Below the pieces are notes generated by a model, which made no database searches, was not told where the DNA came from, and saw only the letters and a list, made by a program, of their open reading frames with translations. Made by a program: the position numbers and the translations under genes. Below are positions 6,245-26,115 of a DNA stretch of 51,458 nucleotides, in pieces (the first letter of the stretch is position 1; every line of letters begins with the position of its first letter). The DNA comes from Paracoccaceae bacterium (GTDB lineage: Bacteria; Pseudomonadota; Alphaproteobacteria; Rhodobacterales; Rhodobacteraceae): contig SKYA01000042.1 in assembly GCA_007128135.1 (NCBI GenBank), positions 1 through 51,458 on the forward strand. The letters run 5' to 3'.

Positions 6245-8335
6245 ATGGCCAGCCGGCCCGAGATCCTGTTTCCGCTTTTCGCTGCGCTGGACGTGCTGGA
6301 GGGAATCGGACCCAAGACCGCGCGTCATTTCGCGACGATGGACATCGAGACCCCGCGCGATCTGCTGTTTCACCTGCCCCATAACCTGATCGACCGTACC
6401 CGGCGCGAGACGATTCGCGGCCTCGACATGCCGGCAATGGCCACGGTCGAGGTGACCGTGGGCGCGCATCAGCCCGCCCGCGCGCGTGGGCGGCCCTACC
6501 GGGTGCAGGTGCGCGACAGCCTGCAGGAGTTCCAGCTTGTCTTCTTTCAGGCGCGCGGCGACTATCTGCACAAGTTACTTCCCACCGGCCAGAAGCGGCT
6601 GGTCTCGGGCAAGGTGGAACTGTTCGACGGAATCGCGCAGATGGTCCATCCCGACTATGTCCTGCGACCCGACGAGGCCGAGACACTACCGCGGGTCGAA
6701 CCGGTCTATCCGCTGACCGCCGGGATCACGCAGAAGGCCCTGCACAAGGCCGCCCATGGCGCGATTGCCCGTGCGCCCGAGCTTGCCGAATGGATCGACC
6801 CGGCGCTGAAGGCGCGCGAAGGCTGGCCCGACTGGCGCACGGCAATCGGACAGGTCCATGCGCCCCGGAGTCTGGCCGATCTTGCCGCCAGCACGCCTGC
6901 GCGCGCGCGGCTGGCCTATGACGAACTGATGGCGCATCAACTGACGCTGGCACTTGCGCGGGCCCGACAGCGCCGCAAGCCGGGGCGGGTCAGTCAGGGG
7001 ACAGGCGCGCTTGCGGCCCGTGTTCTGGCAGCCCTCGACTACGCACCCACGGGCGCGCAGACCCGCGCGATTGCCGAGATCACCGCCGACATGGCCGCCG
7101 GGCGGCGCATGAACCGGCTGTTGCAGGGCGATGTGGGCGCAGGCAAGACGCTGGTGGCCTTCATGGCGCTTCTGACAGCGGTCGAGGCAGGCGGGCAGGG
7201 GGTGATGATGGCCCCGACCGAAATCCTCGCCCGCCAGCATCTCGAAAGCCTGACCCCGCTGGCACGGGCCGCCGGTGTCTCGCTCACGCTGATGACCGGG
7301 CGTGACAAGGGGACCGAACGCGCCGCCAAACGCGCCGATGTGGCCGAGGGGCGCGCGCAGATCGTGCTGGGCACGCATGCCGTGTTCCAGAAGGGCGTCG
7401 AATTCGCCGATCTGCGGCTGGCCATCATCGACGAGCAGCACCGTTTCGGCGTGGCGCAGCGCGCGGCCCTTGCCGGCAAGGCCGAAAACGCGGATGTGCT
7501 GGTGATGACTGCCACGCCGATTCCGCGTTCGCTGGCGCTTGCCCAGTATGGCGACATGGATGTGTCCGTGCTGGACGAGAAACCCCCGGGCCGACAGCCG
7601 GTCGCGACCGCACTGGTCTCGACCGCGCGGCTGGAGGAAGTGATCGCGCATCTGCGCACGGCCATGGCCGAAGGACGGCAGGCTTACTGGGTCTGCCCGC
7701 TGGTCGAGGAATCCGAGGTCAGCACCCTGACCGCGGCCGAAGCCCGTTTCGAGCATCTGCGCGCAGCCCTGGGCGAGGGGGTGGTCGGGCTGGTGCATGG
7801 CCAGCTCCCCCCGGCCGAGAAGGACGCCGCCATGGCCCGCTTCGTTGCCGGCGAGACGAAACTGCTGGTGGCGACAACCGTGATCGAGGTGGGCGTGAAT
7901 GTGCCCAATGCGTCGATCATGGTGATCGAGCGTGCCGAGAGTTTCGGGCTGGCACAGTTGCACCAGTTGCGCGGGCGGGTGGGACGCGGCGCTGCCGCCT
8001 CGACCTGCCTGCTGATGTACGAGCCGCCGCTTGGCGAGACTGCGGTGCGGCGCCTGAAACTGCTGCGCGACACCGAGGACGGCTTTCGGATTGCCGAAGA
8101 AGACATGGCCATTCGCGGCGCGGGTGACCTGATCGGCACCGCGCAATCGGGCCTTCCGCGATTCCGCGTGGCCGATCTGGAACGCCAGTCCGGGCTGATG
8201 ACGCTCGCGCAGCAGGATGCACGCAAACTGCTCTCGGATGACCCGGCACTGGAGAGCGCGCGCGGCAAGGCCGCGCGGGTGCTTTTGTGGCTGATGCAGC
8301 AGGACCGTGCCATCCGCTATCTCTCGATCGGTTAA
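6245..8335 (+). CDS. recG: ATP-dependent DNA helicase RecG
   Basis: 696 residues. An N-terminal wedge domain (IGPKTARHF, LLFHLPHNLIDR) is followed by the helicase core: Walker A GDVGAGKT at 295-302, DEQH box in IIDEQHRFG, TATPIPRSLAL, then motifs IV-VI including TTVIEVGVNVPNA and QLRGRVGRG. RecG regresses stalled forks and unwinds branched DNA. It starts one base after the ligA stop, so translation is probably coupled. Immediately after its stop codon, with a one-base gap, lies the LexA-type box of the next transcription unit; recG itself does not appear to be under that box. Confidence 0.97.
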   Translation: MASRPEILFPLFAALDVLEGIGPKTARHFATMDIETPRDLLFHLPHNLIDRTRRETIRGLDMPAMATVEVTVGAHQPARARGRPYRVQVRDSLQEFQLVFFQARGDYLHKLLPTGQKRLVSGKVELFDGIAQMVHPDYVLRPDEAETLPRVEPVYPLTAGITQKALHKAAHGAIARAPELAEWIDPALKAREGWPDWRTAIGQVHAPRSLADLAASTPARARLAYDELMAHQLTLALARARQRRKPGRVSQGTGALAARVLAALDYAPTGAQTRAIAEITADMAAGRRMNRLLQGDVGAGKTLVAFMALLTAVEAGGQGVMMAPTEILARQHLESLTPLARAAGVSLTLMTGRDKGTERAAKRADVAEGRAQIVLGTHAVFQKGVEFADLRLAIIDEQHRFGVAQRAALAGKAENADVLVMTATPIPRSLALAQYGDMDVSVLDEKPPGRQPVATALVSTARLEEVIAHLRTAMAEGRQAYWVCPLVEESEVSTLTAAEARFEHLRAALGEGVVGLVHGQLPPAEKDAAMARFVAGETKLLVATTVIEVGVNVPNASIMVIERAESFGLAQLHQLRGRVGRGAAASTCLLMYEPPLGETAVRRLKLLRDTEDGFRIAEEDMAIRGAGDLIGTAQSGLPRFRVADLERQSGLMTLAQQDARKLLSDDPALESARGKAARVLLWLMQQDRAIRYLSIG

Positions 8336-8336
8336 T

Positions 8337-8381
8337 GTTCCATTAATGTTCTTGACATGATCGCAGGTGTGTGAGAACAAT
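8337..8381 (+). promoter_or_regulatory. LexA-type SOS box and promoter for the 33-aa peptide gene
   Basis: GTTCCATTAATGTTC at 8337-8351 is an exact GTTC-N7-GTTC, the LexA operator consensus of Alphaproteobacteria. It abuts a consensus -35 hexamer TTGACA at 8352-8357. A weak -10 (AACAAT, 8376-8381) follows with an 18-base spacer. A repressor bound here would cover the -35 region. The motif is expected about once per window by chance at this G+C, so the placement directly on a promoter in front of a small gene is the real evidence. Confidence 0.72.
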
Positions 8382-8410
8382 ACGGCAACAAACAGCCAAA
8401 GGAGGATGTG

Positions 8411-8512
8411 ATGTTCCGAAATGTTCCCGCCACGTTCTGGCAAGACCTCACCGGCGCCGTCGCCCTTGGCGTTCTGGTTATCGTCACGCTCCACCTGCCG
8501 CTGTTTGCCTGA
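8411..8512 (+). CDS. 33-residue single-pass membrane peptide, probably SOS-induced
   Basis: The reading frame begins [12 protein letters not shown] and continues into a hydrophobic stretch (about residues 13-32, [20 protein letters not shown]) before the stop. It has a short polar N-terminus carrying R3 and D12 and one membrane segment that nearly fills the rest. The ribosome site AAAGGAGG five bases before the ATG is the strongest in this region. It is framed by its own LexA box and promoter upstream and a strong intrinsic terminator downstream, so it is a complete independent transcription unit. I do not recognise it as a named family. In size, topology and regulation it parallels SidA of Caulobacter, a 29-residue SOS-induced inner-membrane inhibitor of cell division; homology is not claimed. 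Confidence 0.75.
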
Positions 8513-8540
8513 GACCTGCGCACTGCCTCGACCCAGCCTC

Positions 8541-8576
8541 GCGCCGCCATGCCGCCCCGCATGTGCGGCGCTTTTT
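8541..8576 (+). terminator. Intrinsic terminator after the 33-aa peptide gene
   Basis: GCGCCGC-CATGC (8541-8552) pairs with GCATG-t-GCGGCGC (8559-8571), giving a 12-bp stem with one bulged base and a six-base loop, followed by TTTTT at 8572-8576. It separates the peptide gene from trmFO. Confidence 0.85.
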
Positions 8577-8640
8577 CTTCGCGTTTGCCAAGCAGGTGCA
8601 GACTGGCTATCTCAGGAGAGTGTCAGGCAGGAGAAGGCAG

Positions 8641-9993
8641 ATGAGCGAGGCGCTGCATATCGTGGGCGGTGGCATGGCGGGGGCCGAAGCGGCATGGCAG
8701 GCCGCCAATGCCGGTGTGAAGGTGGTCCTGCACGAGATGCGTCCCACGCGCGGCACCTTTGCCCATCAGACCGACCATCTGGCCGAGATGGTCTGCTCGA
8801 ACTCCTTCCGTTCGGATGATGACGAACAGAATGCGGTGGGCCTGTTGCACTGGGAGATGCGCGCCGCCGGTGGCCTGATCATGGCCATGGCCGACCGCCA
8901 TGCCCTGCCTGCGGGCGGTGCGCTGGCGGTGGACCGCGACGCTTTTGCCCAGGCCGTGACCGAACGGTTGCGCACGCATCCCGGCATTCACGTGGAGCGA
9001 GGCGAGATCACCAGCCTGCCCGAGCGCGGGCACTGGATCATTGCGACCGGGCCGCTGACCTCGGACGCGCTGGGCGCGGCGATCCGCGCCGAGACCGGCG
9101 CCGAGGCACTGGCCTTTTTCGACGCCATCGCGCCTATCGTCTATTTCGACAGTATCGACATGACCAGGGCGTGGTTCCAGTCGCGCTATGACAAGGGCGA
9201 GACCGAGCAGGAGCGCACGGCCTATCTCAACTGCCCGATGACGCGGGCGCAATACGAGGCCTTCATCGACGCGTTGCTGGCTGCCGACAAGACCGAGTTC
9301 CACGAGGGCGAAACCGCCGGGTATTTCGACGGCTGCCTGCCCATCGAGGTCATGGCCGAACGCGGGCGCGAGACATTGCGCCATGGGCCGATGAAGCCCG
9401 TCGGGCTGACCAACCCGCACGCACCGGACCACAAGCCCCATGCCGTGGTGCAGTTGCGCCGCGACAATGCGCTAGGCACGCTCTACAACATCGTAGGCTT
9501 CCAGACCAAGATGAAGTATGGCGCGCAAACCGATGTTTTCAGAATGATTCCCGGTCTTGAAAATGCAAGCTTCGCGCGTCTTGGCGGAATCCATCGCAAC
9601 ACCTTTCTCAATTCGCCAACGCTGCTGGACGATCATCTGCGGATGAAATCGCGCCCGCATATCCGCTTTGCAGGCCAGATTACCGGGGTCGAGGGCTATG
9701 TCGAATCCGCCGCCATGGGGTTGCTTGCGGGGCGTCTTGCCGCAGGCGAGATTCTGGGCCATCGCGCCAGCGCGCCCCCGCGCGAGACGGCCATGGGCGC
9801 GCTTGTCCATCACATCACCGGCGGGGCCGAGGCCAAGACCTTTCAGCCGATGAATGTCAATTTCGGCCTGTTTCCGCCCATTGATGCCAGAGGCGGGCGC
9901 CGGGGCCGCCGCGACCGCTTCAGGGCCTATACCGACCGTGCAAAAGCGGCCTTCACCCAATGGCTGGGCGCGCAGGCGCGCAATGCCGCCTGA
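8641..9993 (+). CDS. trmFO: tRNA (uracil-54-C5)-methyltransferase TrmFO, folate/FAD-dependent
   Basis: 450 residues from the ATG at 8641, which has AGGAG about nine bases upstream; the frame is open further 5' but lacks family sequence there. The FAD-binding motif [12 protein letters not shown] begins at residue 7, followed by the family block [19 protein letters not shown] and the late segment [28 protein letters not shown]. TrmFO makes ribothymidine at position 54 of tRNA, taking the methyl carbon from methylenetetrahydrofolate and reducing it with FADH2. This is the route used in organisms without TrmA. Its 3' end overlaps gluQ by 11 bases. Confidence 0.96.
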
Positions 9994-24843: not shown

Positions 24844-26115
24844 ATGACCTACAGCTACAAATCCGACTTCCTGCGCATCATGGCCGAGCGTGGCTTCCTT
24901 GCCGATTGCACTGATCCGCAGGGGCTGGACGAGGCGCTGCTCAGGGGCGTCGTGCCTGCCTATATCGGCTATGACGCCACGGCGAAGTCGCTGCATGTCG
25001 GGCATCTGCTGAACATCATGGTTCTGCGCTGGTTCCAGAAATGCGGCCACAAGCCGATCACGCTGATGGGCGGCGGCACCACCAAGGTGGGCGACCCGTC
25101 CTTCCGGTCGGAAGAGCGTCCGCTGCTGGATGCGCAGGCGATTGACGCCAATATCGACGGCATGAAGCAGGTCTTCGCGAAATACCTGTCCTATGATGAT
25201 GGCCCGACTGGCGCGATCATGCTCAACAATGCCGAATGGCTGGACGGGCTGAATTACCTCGATTTCCTGCGCGATGTGGGGCGGCATTTCTCGGTCAACC
25301 GGATGCTGAGTTTCGAAAGCGTCAAGTCGCGACTGGACCGCGAGCAGTCGCTGTCGTTCCTCGAATTCAACTACATGATCCTGCAGGCCTATGATTTCGT
25401 GGAAATCCATCGTCGGCATGGCTGCCTGTTACAGATGGGCGGGTCCGATCAATGGGGCAATATCGTCAATGGAATTGATCTGGCCCGCCGGATTGCGAAT
25501 GCCGAGATCTACGGGCTGACCACGCCGCTTCTGACCACTTCGGACGGGCGCAAGATGGGCAAGTCGCAAGGGGGTGCCGTCTGGCTGAATGCCGACATGC
25601 TGAGCCCTTACGAGTTCTGGCAGTTCTGGCGCAACACCACCGATGCCGATGTCGGGCGCTTCCTGAAGCTCTATACCGAATTGCCGGTTGCGGAATGCGA
25701 CCGGCTGGGTGCGCTGGAAGGCTCCGGGATCAATGCCGCCAAGGTCATCCTTGCCAATGAGGTGACGACACTGTGCCACGGGCGCGAGGCCGCGCAGGCC
25801 GCCGAGGCCACGGCGCGCGAGGTATTCGAGAAAGGCGGGATGGGCGAGGATCTGCCAACGCTGGCGCTGAGCGCGCAGGATCTGGCGCAGGGGGTTTCCA
25901 TGGCGCAACTTTTCGTGCGCACGGGACTGGTGAAATCGGGCAAGGAAGCCAAGCGCCTGATAGCAGAGGGCGGCGCACGGGCCAATGACGCAGCCGTCAC
26001 CGATGCCGGTCAGATGGTACATGCCGCTGACCTGAAGCGCCCGCTGCGGCTGACGGCCGGAAGGAAGCGCCACGCGCTGGTGACCTGCACCGAAACGCAG
26101 GTGCCTACCGGCTGA
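24844..26115 (+). CDS. tyrS: Tyrosyl-tRNA synthetase
   Basis: 423 residues. The class I HIGH motif is HVGH at residues 51-54 and the KMSKS motif is KMGKS at 237-241. The tyrosine-binding [12 protein letters not shown], the [11 protein letters not shown] block and an S4-like C-terminal RNA-binding domain ([25 protein letters not shown]) are all in order. It charges tRNA(Tyr) in the cytosol. The gene converges on the DUF3422 gene, leaving 44 bases between stops with no clear U-tract terminator. Confidence 0.97.

Follow-up and report, generated by a model that had tools for sequence, protein, structure and literature searches.

A Putative LexA-Controlled Single-Pass Membrane Peptide Encoded After recG in Rhodobacteraceae

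The window considered here, i.e., the whole stretch of 51,458 nucleotides of DNA from a Paracoccaceae bacterium that was analyzed, carries a compact unit of 240 bases with recG upstream and trmFO downstream. The upstream gene encodes the ATP-dependent DNA helicase RecG (6245..8335, + strand; NCBIfam PRK10917 equivalog, E 0), and a single base separates the end of its stop codon from the LexA-type operator GTTCCATTAATGTTC (8337..8351, + strand), an exact GTTC-N7-GTTC, a pattern conserved in the family loci, here with the core CATTAAT. The -35 hexamer TTGACA (8352..8357, + strand) adjoins the operator and, after an 18-nt spacer, the -10 hexamer AACAAT (8376..8381, + strand) completes the one promoter-like site found in 8000-8900, where shuffled sequences gave a mean of 0.0 (sd 0.2). 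A near-copy of the operator (8375..8389, - strand), which reads GAAC-N7-CAAC on the + strand and GTTG-N7-GTTC on the - strand, covers the -10 hexamer and the probable start. The leader, counted from this inferred start, would be about 23 nt long, and the ribosome site AAAGGAGG (8398..8405, + strand), similar to sites that precede the start in relatives, leads into a 33-codon gene for a predicted single-pass membrane peptide (8411..8512, + strand). Its ATG lies at 8411 and its stop codon at 8510-8512; a GTG 3 bases upstream of the ATG is a possible alternative start. A first-pass annotation of this DNA had described the box, the two promoter hexamers, the ribosome site and the 33-codon frame, and each of these elements was recovered where it had been placed.

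The same annotation had closed the unit with a strong intrinsic terminator (8541..8576, + strand). The fold of -23.6 kcal/mol (z -3.17), which only 1 of 200 shuffles equaled, and the UUUUU that follows it agree with this assignment, although a simple terminator scan did not list the site, the stem of which has a bulge. That scan gave two other sites instead, one in recG (8259-8277) and one inside the peptide frame (8458-8471), with a shuffle mean of 0.6. Further downstream lies trmFO (8641..9993, + strand; NCBIfam PRK05335, E 1e-200). In a tblastn comparison of the neighbors, most loci of the genus had a recognizable trmFO on the downstream side and no locus compared from another genus did, and trmFO is therefore placed outside the unit.

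The LexA protein of alphaproteobacteria binds GTTC-N7-GTTC. Exact copies of this pattern occur three times in the window, a number reached by 6 of 100 shuffles (shuffle mean 0.85), and 82 times in the whole genome, versus 65 for a reversed control pattern. The earlier estimate that the box alone would be expected about once per window by chance was thus a fair one. Because the count in the window is close to chance, the box alone proves nothing, and it is the joint arrangement together with its conservation that carries weight; the first-pass annotation had likewise relied on the joint arrangement, and its conservation across relatives bears this out. The two other exact copies in the window both have a G+C-rich core. 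One is located at 25021-25035, and the other, at 8423-8437, falls within the codons of the peptide and, given its core, is probably a coding coincidence.

Upstream of the peptide, an exact GTTC-N7-GTTC is present in 57 of 57 family loci from the genus search and the wider family search (59 loci, minus L031 and L039 with their short flanks) and in 33 of 33 further family loci, all of which also have the recG end upstream. The latter comprise the 30 best of the 366 genomes matched in an order-wide profile search and three loci from a class-wide sample. Both sets hold the best-scoring loci of each search, while the weak end of the family is covered by the 16 retested loci presented below. Conservation of the box in relatives, which had been proposed as a check, is accordingly exact in both sets, and it rules out the box as a chance occurrence despite the near-chance count in the window. 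The 57 loci had not been chosen by their promoter, and they keep TTKAC at the -35 place, bar a few. In two of them, L017 and L019, three GTTC half-sites follow each other with spacers of 6 and 7: the pair adjoining the -35 hexamer is the one with 6 bases between its halves, and the exact N7 pair has moved so that it overlaps the -35. Across a combined set of 137 promoters, i.e., the 57 loci and 80 loci from a promoter scan whose pattern itself fixes the half-sites and some promoter letters of those 80, it is the box, the two promoter hexamers (-35 and -10) and the second element that hold most of the information. At most 0.4 bits remain in the spacer and, with the exception of one position, in the region that begins about 18 bases past the -10 GAAC. 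The upstream element thus appears to be a conserved LexA-type box with its promoter, to which LexA would bind.

A search with the single peptide sequence detected the family in 34 of 36 genomes of the genus, the own genome included (E 0.002 or better), and gave only chance-level matches (E 0.31 or worse) in 4 of 24 genomes of other families. In a wider sample of the family, a single sequence matched 91 of 295 genomes at E 0.1. A profile made of 41 peptides (A1) reached 366 of 390 genomes of the order and 135 of 139 genera, and every genome listed in this search is labeled as belonging to the same family. Twenty of the 24 genomes missed by the profile were retested with a broader one (A2), which yielded 17 matches at E 1; in 16 of these the match is a small frame preceded by an exact box, and the recG end was recognized in 14 of the 16. 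Four of the 20 retested genomes (G403, G226, G546 and G567) had no recognizable member. The expectation that the same unit of box, promoter and small frame would be found in related Rhodobacteraceae therefore holds for nearly all sampled genomes. Eleven of the listed genomes (G105, G176, G245, G351, G415, G455, G489, G509, G530, G588 and G624) display one more match to the profile (E 0.01 or better), which could be either a second copy or chance.

In a class-wide sample of 289 genomes, four members of the family were matched and three other genomes gave marginal matches (E 0.006-0.008); the 282 genomes without a match are mostly not listed by name or family. No box was found near the three marginal matches, which were for this reason treated as chance. 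A family wider than Rhodobacteraceae was rejected, as these three were the only matches outside it in the class sample. As far as sampled, the peptide family seems to be confined to Rhodobacteraceae, a family name that we take from the record titles of the named loci and from our understanding of where those genera are placed. Plasmids and phages gave no match with one blended query, which would miss divergent members. A mobile origin was rejected in view of this result and of viral promoter matches that come without recG or peptide.

The promoter can also be taken as the starting point. Its pattern (box, TTKAC, 14-20 bases, GAGAACA) was scanned by itself through a collection of 84,980 species' genomes and matched at least 118 stretches. 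Among the matches listed, recG ends upstream in 116 of 118, and the family peptide follows the promoter in 116 of 118. The two stretches without recG have only 65 and 22 bases of stored upstream DNA, and in the two without the peptide the stored DNA runs on for only 116 and 77 bases. Since all exceptions are cut by the ends of the stored DNA, every testable case among the matches listed carries both recG and the peptide. Their record titles give a genus or, failing that, a broader rank (Alphaproteobacteria or Pseudomonadota, for example), and the genera so named presumably belong to Rhodobacteraceae. The same pattern gave three matches in 2.9 million viral contigs, none of them with recG or, as judged by eye, with a family-like frame; two of the three are identical and lie within a long open frame.

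The second, opposite-facing element is absent from the first-pass annotation. Counted from the first base of the conserved GAAC at the -10, a half-site begins 11 bases further on, which gives GAAC-N7-xAAC. At the spacing of 7, this half-site fits GAAC at three or more of four bases in 118 of 118 among the promoter-scan matches listed, the scan pattern having fixed only the first half of the element. Other spacings are fitted in at most 16 of 80 loci (80 of the at least 118 promoter-scan loci). Read on the other strand, the element is GTTG-N7-GTTC; like the first box, it has its A+T-rich side adjacent to GTTC, and it is one base off the consensus in nearly all copies. An initial count, which took the first GAACA found and covered 80 listed of the at least 118 scan loci, had given the spacing of 7 in 77 of 80 scan loci and 43 of 55 other loci; 12 of the 55 had a full match at a spacing of 6, and the searched range lacked a GAACA in 2 of 57. 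The later count used 118 loci and was anchored on the matched GAACA, and we read the spacing-6 cases as likely matches to an earlier GAACA (GAACATATGAGAAC). The second element is taken for a putative weaker LexA site, facing the opposite way, over the -10 and the start; it may instead be a feature of the start site itself.

The peptide encoded in the window has 33 residues, and its relatives have 31-47, with 40 residues in 51 of 79, lengths that are affected by the choice of start. The Asp and Gly of a D-x-x-G motif are invariant in the 59-member alignment A2, which comprises 58 of the 79 promoter-scan peptides and that of the window. D-x-x-G is found in 133 of 136 peptides and D-x-x-G/A in 135; beyond the conserved Asp, all 136 are free of K, R, D and E, and in 111 of the 135 peptides with D-x-x-G/A the chain ends exactly 21 residues after this Asp. 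The best 18-residue mean hydropathy is 1.7 or higher in all 136 peptides, and AlphaFold2 models the peptide of the window as one helix at residues 7-32 (mean pLDDT 92, pTM 0.50). Both results agree with the single membrane helix that had been proposed for the 33-codon frame, and the peptide is predicted to consist of one. The N-terminal part has on average 2.4 K+R versus 2.2 D+E, the conserved Asp counted; because acidic and basic residues are nearly equal in number, the positive-inside rule points only weakly to an N-terminus on the inside. This N-terminal part has a mean amphipathic moment of 0.36 versus 0.24 in shuffles (sd 0.12; 99 peptides), and it is missing from the two Paracoccus peptides measured (31 aa).

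The codon pattern was examined over the final 26 codons in 31 sequences of the genus. Dividing median pN by median pS gives 0.32 for the proper reading frame, versus 1.30 and 2.60 when the frame is shifted. Departures from the majority occur in.17 of cases at codon position 1, in.09 at position 2 and in.38 at position 3. Some single pairs gave dN/dS values of 0.7-0.94, which are noisy at 26 codons each. Frame conservation and synonymous-site bias, on which the earlier interpretation had been made to depend, are thus both found, and the pattern argues that the 33-codon frame evolves as a protein and is a real protein-coding gene. No convincing library family for the peptide emerged from Pfam, NCBIfam, PHROG, PADLOC or PDB. 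The best matches (NCBIfam 0.0063, in 2 of 41 members; Pfam 0.074, in one; PHROG 0.0042, in one) were not accepted as kin, PADLOC had no match at 0.1 and PDB none at 1. LysM was absent from the Pfam matches of the 41 members at E 0.1, the chain ending with the helix. As no Pfam or NCBIfam model was found, standard annotation probably overlooks the gene.

Elsewhere in the genome, lexA and recA are preceded by the same box, LexA being over the profile cut-off and recA being recognized by eye. Boxes with an A+T-rich core lie near accA, dnaE2, lexA, a photolyase gene, uvrD and recA (L127, L128, L130, L132, L133 and L135; assigned by eye, lexA by profile), and this set forms a plausible SOS regulon. 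SulA (Pfam PF03846) had no match in the own genome, and none of 101 genomes of the order had a match over the cut-off; the E. coli control was positive, and one match below the cut-off is broken by two stops.

Another box (L134:1532-1546, in the own genome C43:8831-8845) is located at the start of a leader that resembles the sRNA UpsM, at the dcw division cluster; we take the conserved leader before mraZ to be UpsM from its position. In the genus (L286-L314), 29 loci were examined, 27 of them with enough upstream DNA, and 20 of these 27 have an exact GTTC-N7-GTTC 422-449 nt before the MraZ KVDxKGR codons. Outside the genus, a forward box was seen in 1 of 29 loci, with a G+C-rich core, and one of the other 28 has a reverse-facing box. 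The division-cluster box was rejected as part of the finding at recG, since it is a lineage feature that is nearly absent in other loci of the order. The leader itself (L134:1764-1885, relatives L286-L314) exhibits striking conservation across the genus; of 61 genomes examined in the order, 58 match it, and the four loci tried gave no Rfam match at the gathering threshold. In the main text of the UpsM paper, neither 'LexA' nor 'SOS' appears (PMC5089854). If the division-cluster box is real, SOS would also touch the division cluster itself in this genus.

The closest likeness by description is SidA of Caulobacter crescentus, which is reported to be a 29-residue inner-membrane SOS division inhibitor that acts on FtsW (PMC4211646); the filamentation of lexA-deleted Caulobacter requires sidA, according to two further papers (PMC12700426; PMC13384398). 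SidA and the peptide family are alike in their LexA-type control, their size of about 30-40 residues and their one membrane helix with no further domain. They are likened by description and not by sequence, and the family differs from SidA by its fixed place after recG in Rhodobacteraceae. YneA of B. subtilis acts on, or blocks, FtsW, and AlphaFold 3 models also put SidA, SosA and ChiZ at FtsW, although the authors consider these models not to be of high confidence (PMC13396833). Like the role proposed here, YneA, SosA and ChiZ (of B. subtilis, S. aureus and M. tuberculosis) are described as damage-induced small single-pass division inhibitors (PMC13396833, PMC6851548). YneA has a LysM domain outside the membrane, whereas the peptide chain here stops at the helix end. 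DidA of Caulobacter (71 aa) is likewise a damage-induced single-pass division inhibitor, but it is SOS-independent and about twice the size (PMC4211646). SulA of E. coli, a LexA-controlled division inhibitor, would be a functional analogue if the peptide indeed brakes division, but it inhibits FtsZ and belongs to another family. Titles and abstract openings of the open-licence literature contained nothing about this peptide and named no SOS division brake for Rhodobacteraceae, and the word recG is absent from the main text of a LexA-site study of Dinoroseobacter shibae (PMC6473078).

The conserved frame, the box and the linkage to recG count in favor of a dedicated SOS gene, as does the fact that the promoter alone predicts the peptide gene. 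We consider the chances evenly balanced that the product is a LexA-repressed inner-membrane peptide that delays division in the manner of SidA, a target that is suggested by analogy only. In undamaged cells, LexA would shut the promoter from two sites, the perfect operator at the -35 and the weaker, opposite-facing one over the -10. Upon DNA damage, RecA-stimulated cleavage of LexA would free the promoter, and the short leader together with the strong ribosome site could then permit a burst of the small peptide. The peptide would insert as one transmembrane helix, with its N-terminal part possibly at the inner face; this part is amphipathic in longer relatives and short here, and it would be followed by the conserved Asp and a charge-free helix that mostly ends 21 residues on. 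The helix might bind a membrane partner and thereby hold back a late division step until repair is done. The precedents of SidA and YneA make the division machinery the likeliest partner by analogy, presumably the septal wall machinery (FtsW/FtsI/FtsN), and the lack of a SulA over the cut-off in 101 genomes of the order was counted for a brake on division. The one-base deviation of the second element, the 6-base spacer in L017 and L019, and the four genomes without a member were counted against the proposal.

The same observations may be accommodated by other explanations. The SOS-induced peptide could control another inner-membrane protein, such as a protease, a transporter, an envelope enzyme or the release of gene transfer agents, and the family-wide inheritance, the length-fixed helix, and the conserved Asp and Gly would all suit a specific protein partner, which the sequence itself does not name. 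To our knowledge, however, SOS membrane peptides of comparable length target either division or membrane potential, and we deem such a different target rather unlikely, if a serious candidate. That the unit holds no protein gene at all, and is instead a small RNA under LexA control or a frame that arose by chance between recG and trmFO, would be compatible with a short transcript unit that ends in a terminator and with the near-chance count of boxes in the window. The codon test contradicts this idea, Asp and Gly are invariant in the 59-member alignment and Rfam has no match at 8300-8650, so that a small RNA or chance frame is ruled out for practical purposes.

The remaining candidate is a membrane-damaging toxin that would send damaged cells into dormancy. 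TisB and DinQ of E. coli are SOS-controlled small membrane peptides, as proposed here. Both act as toxins in type I systems, which are marked by an antisense RNA and a long structured leader. LexA-type control, the small hydrophobic chain and a doubled operator, as if leaky expression were costly, would suit a peptide of this type. At the peptide locus, however, there is no sign of antisense RNA control: the leader is short, Rfam offers no match in the region given above, and no consensus promoter-like site was found on the - strand in 8000-8900, where a non-consensus antisense promoter is possible. The absence of any charge after the Asp in the 136 peptides also speaks against a toxin. Toxin-antitoxin loci are typically patchy in their distribution or carried on mobile elements, whereas the peptide gene occupies one conserved place in nearly every sampled genome (366 of 390) and has no plasmid or phage copy detectable with the one blended query. 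A toxin-like role is less favored because of this near-universal inheritance beside recG, the lack of a mobile copy and the short leader, and we consider it improbable.

A braking role in division therefore remains our preferred interpretation of what appears to be a new peptide family of the SOS-induced single-pass kind. In its most explicit form, the proposal is that Rhodobacteraceae use an undescribed peptide family, sharing no descent with SidA or SulA, as their family-wide SOS checkpoint effector. Nearly every lineage would keep the gene directly behind recG, two convergent LexA operators would bracket the promoter and shut it, and Asp-x-x-Gly together with a length-fixed helix free of charges would make up a minimal module able to stall the synthase of the septal wall; we put this forward tentatively, as a hypothesis that falls somewhat short of an even chance. 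Rhodobacteraceae form a large bacterial group that is abundant in the sea, and a near-universal gene after recG makes damage-linked division arrest directly testable in their tractable strains. The length-fixed helix with its two conserved residues would also be a good minimal system to understand how one helix may hold a membrane enzyme.
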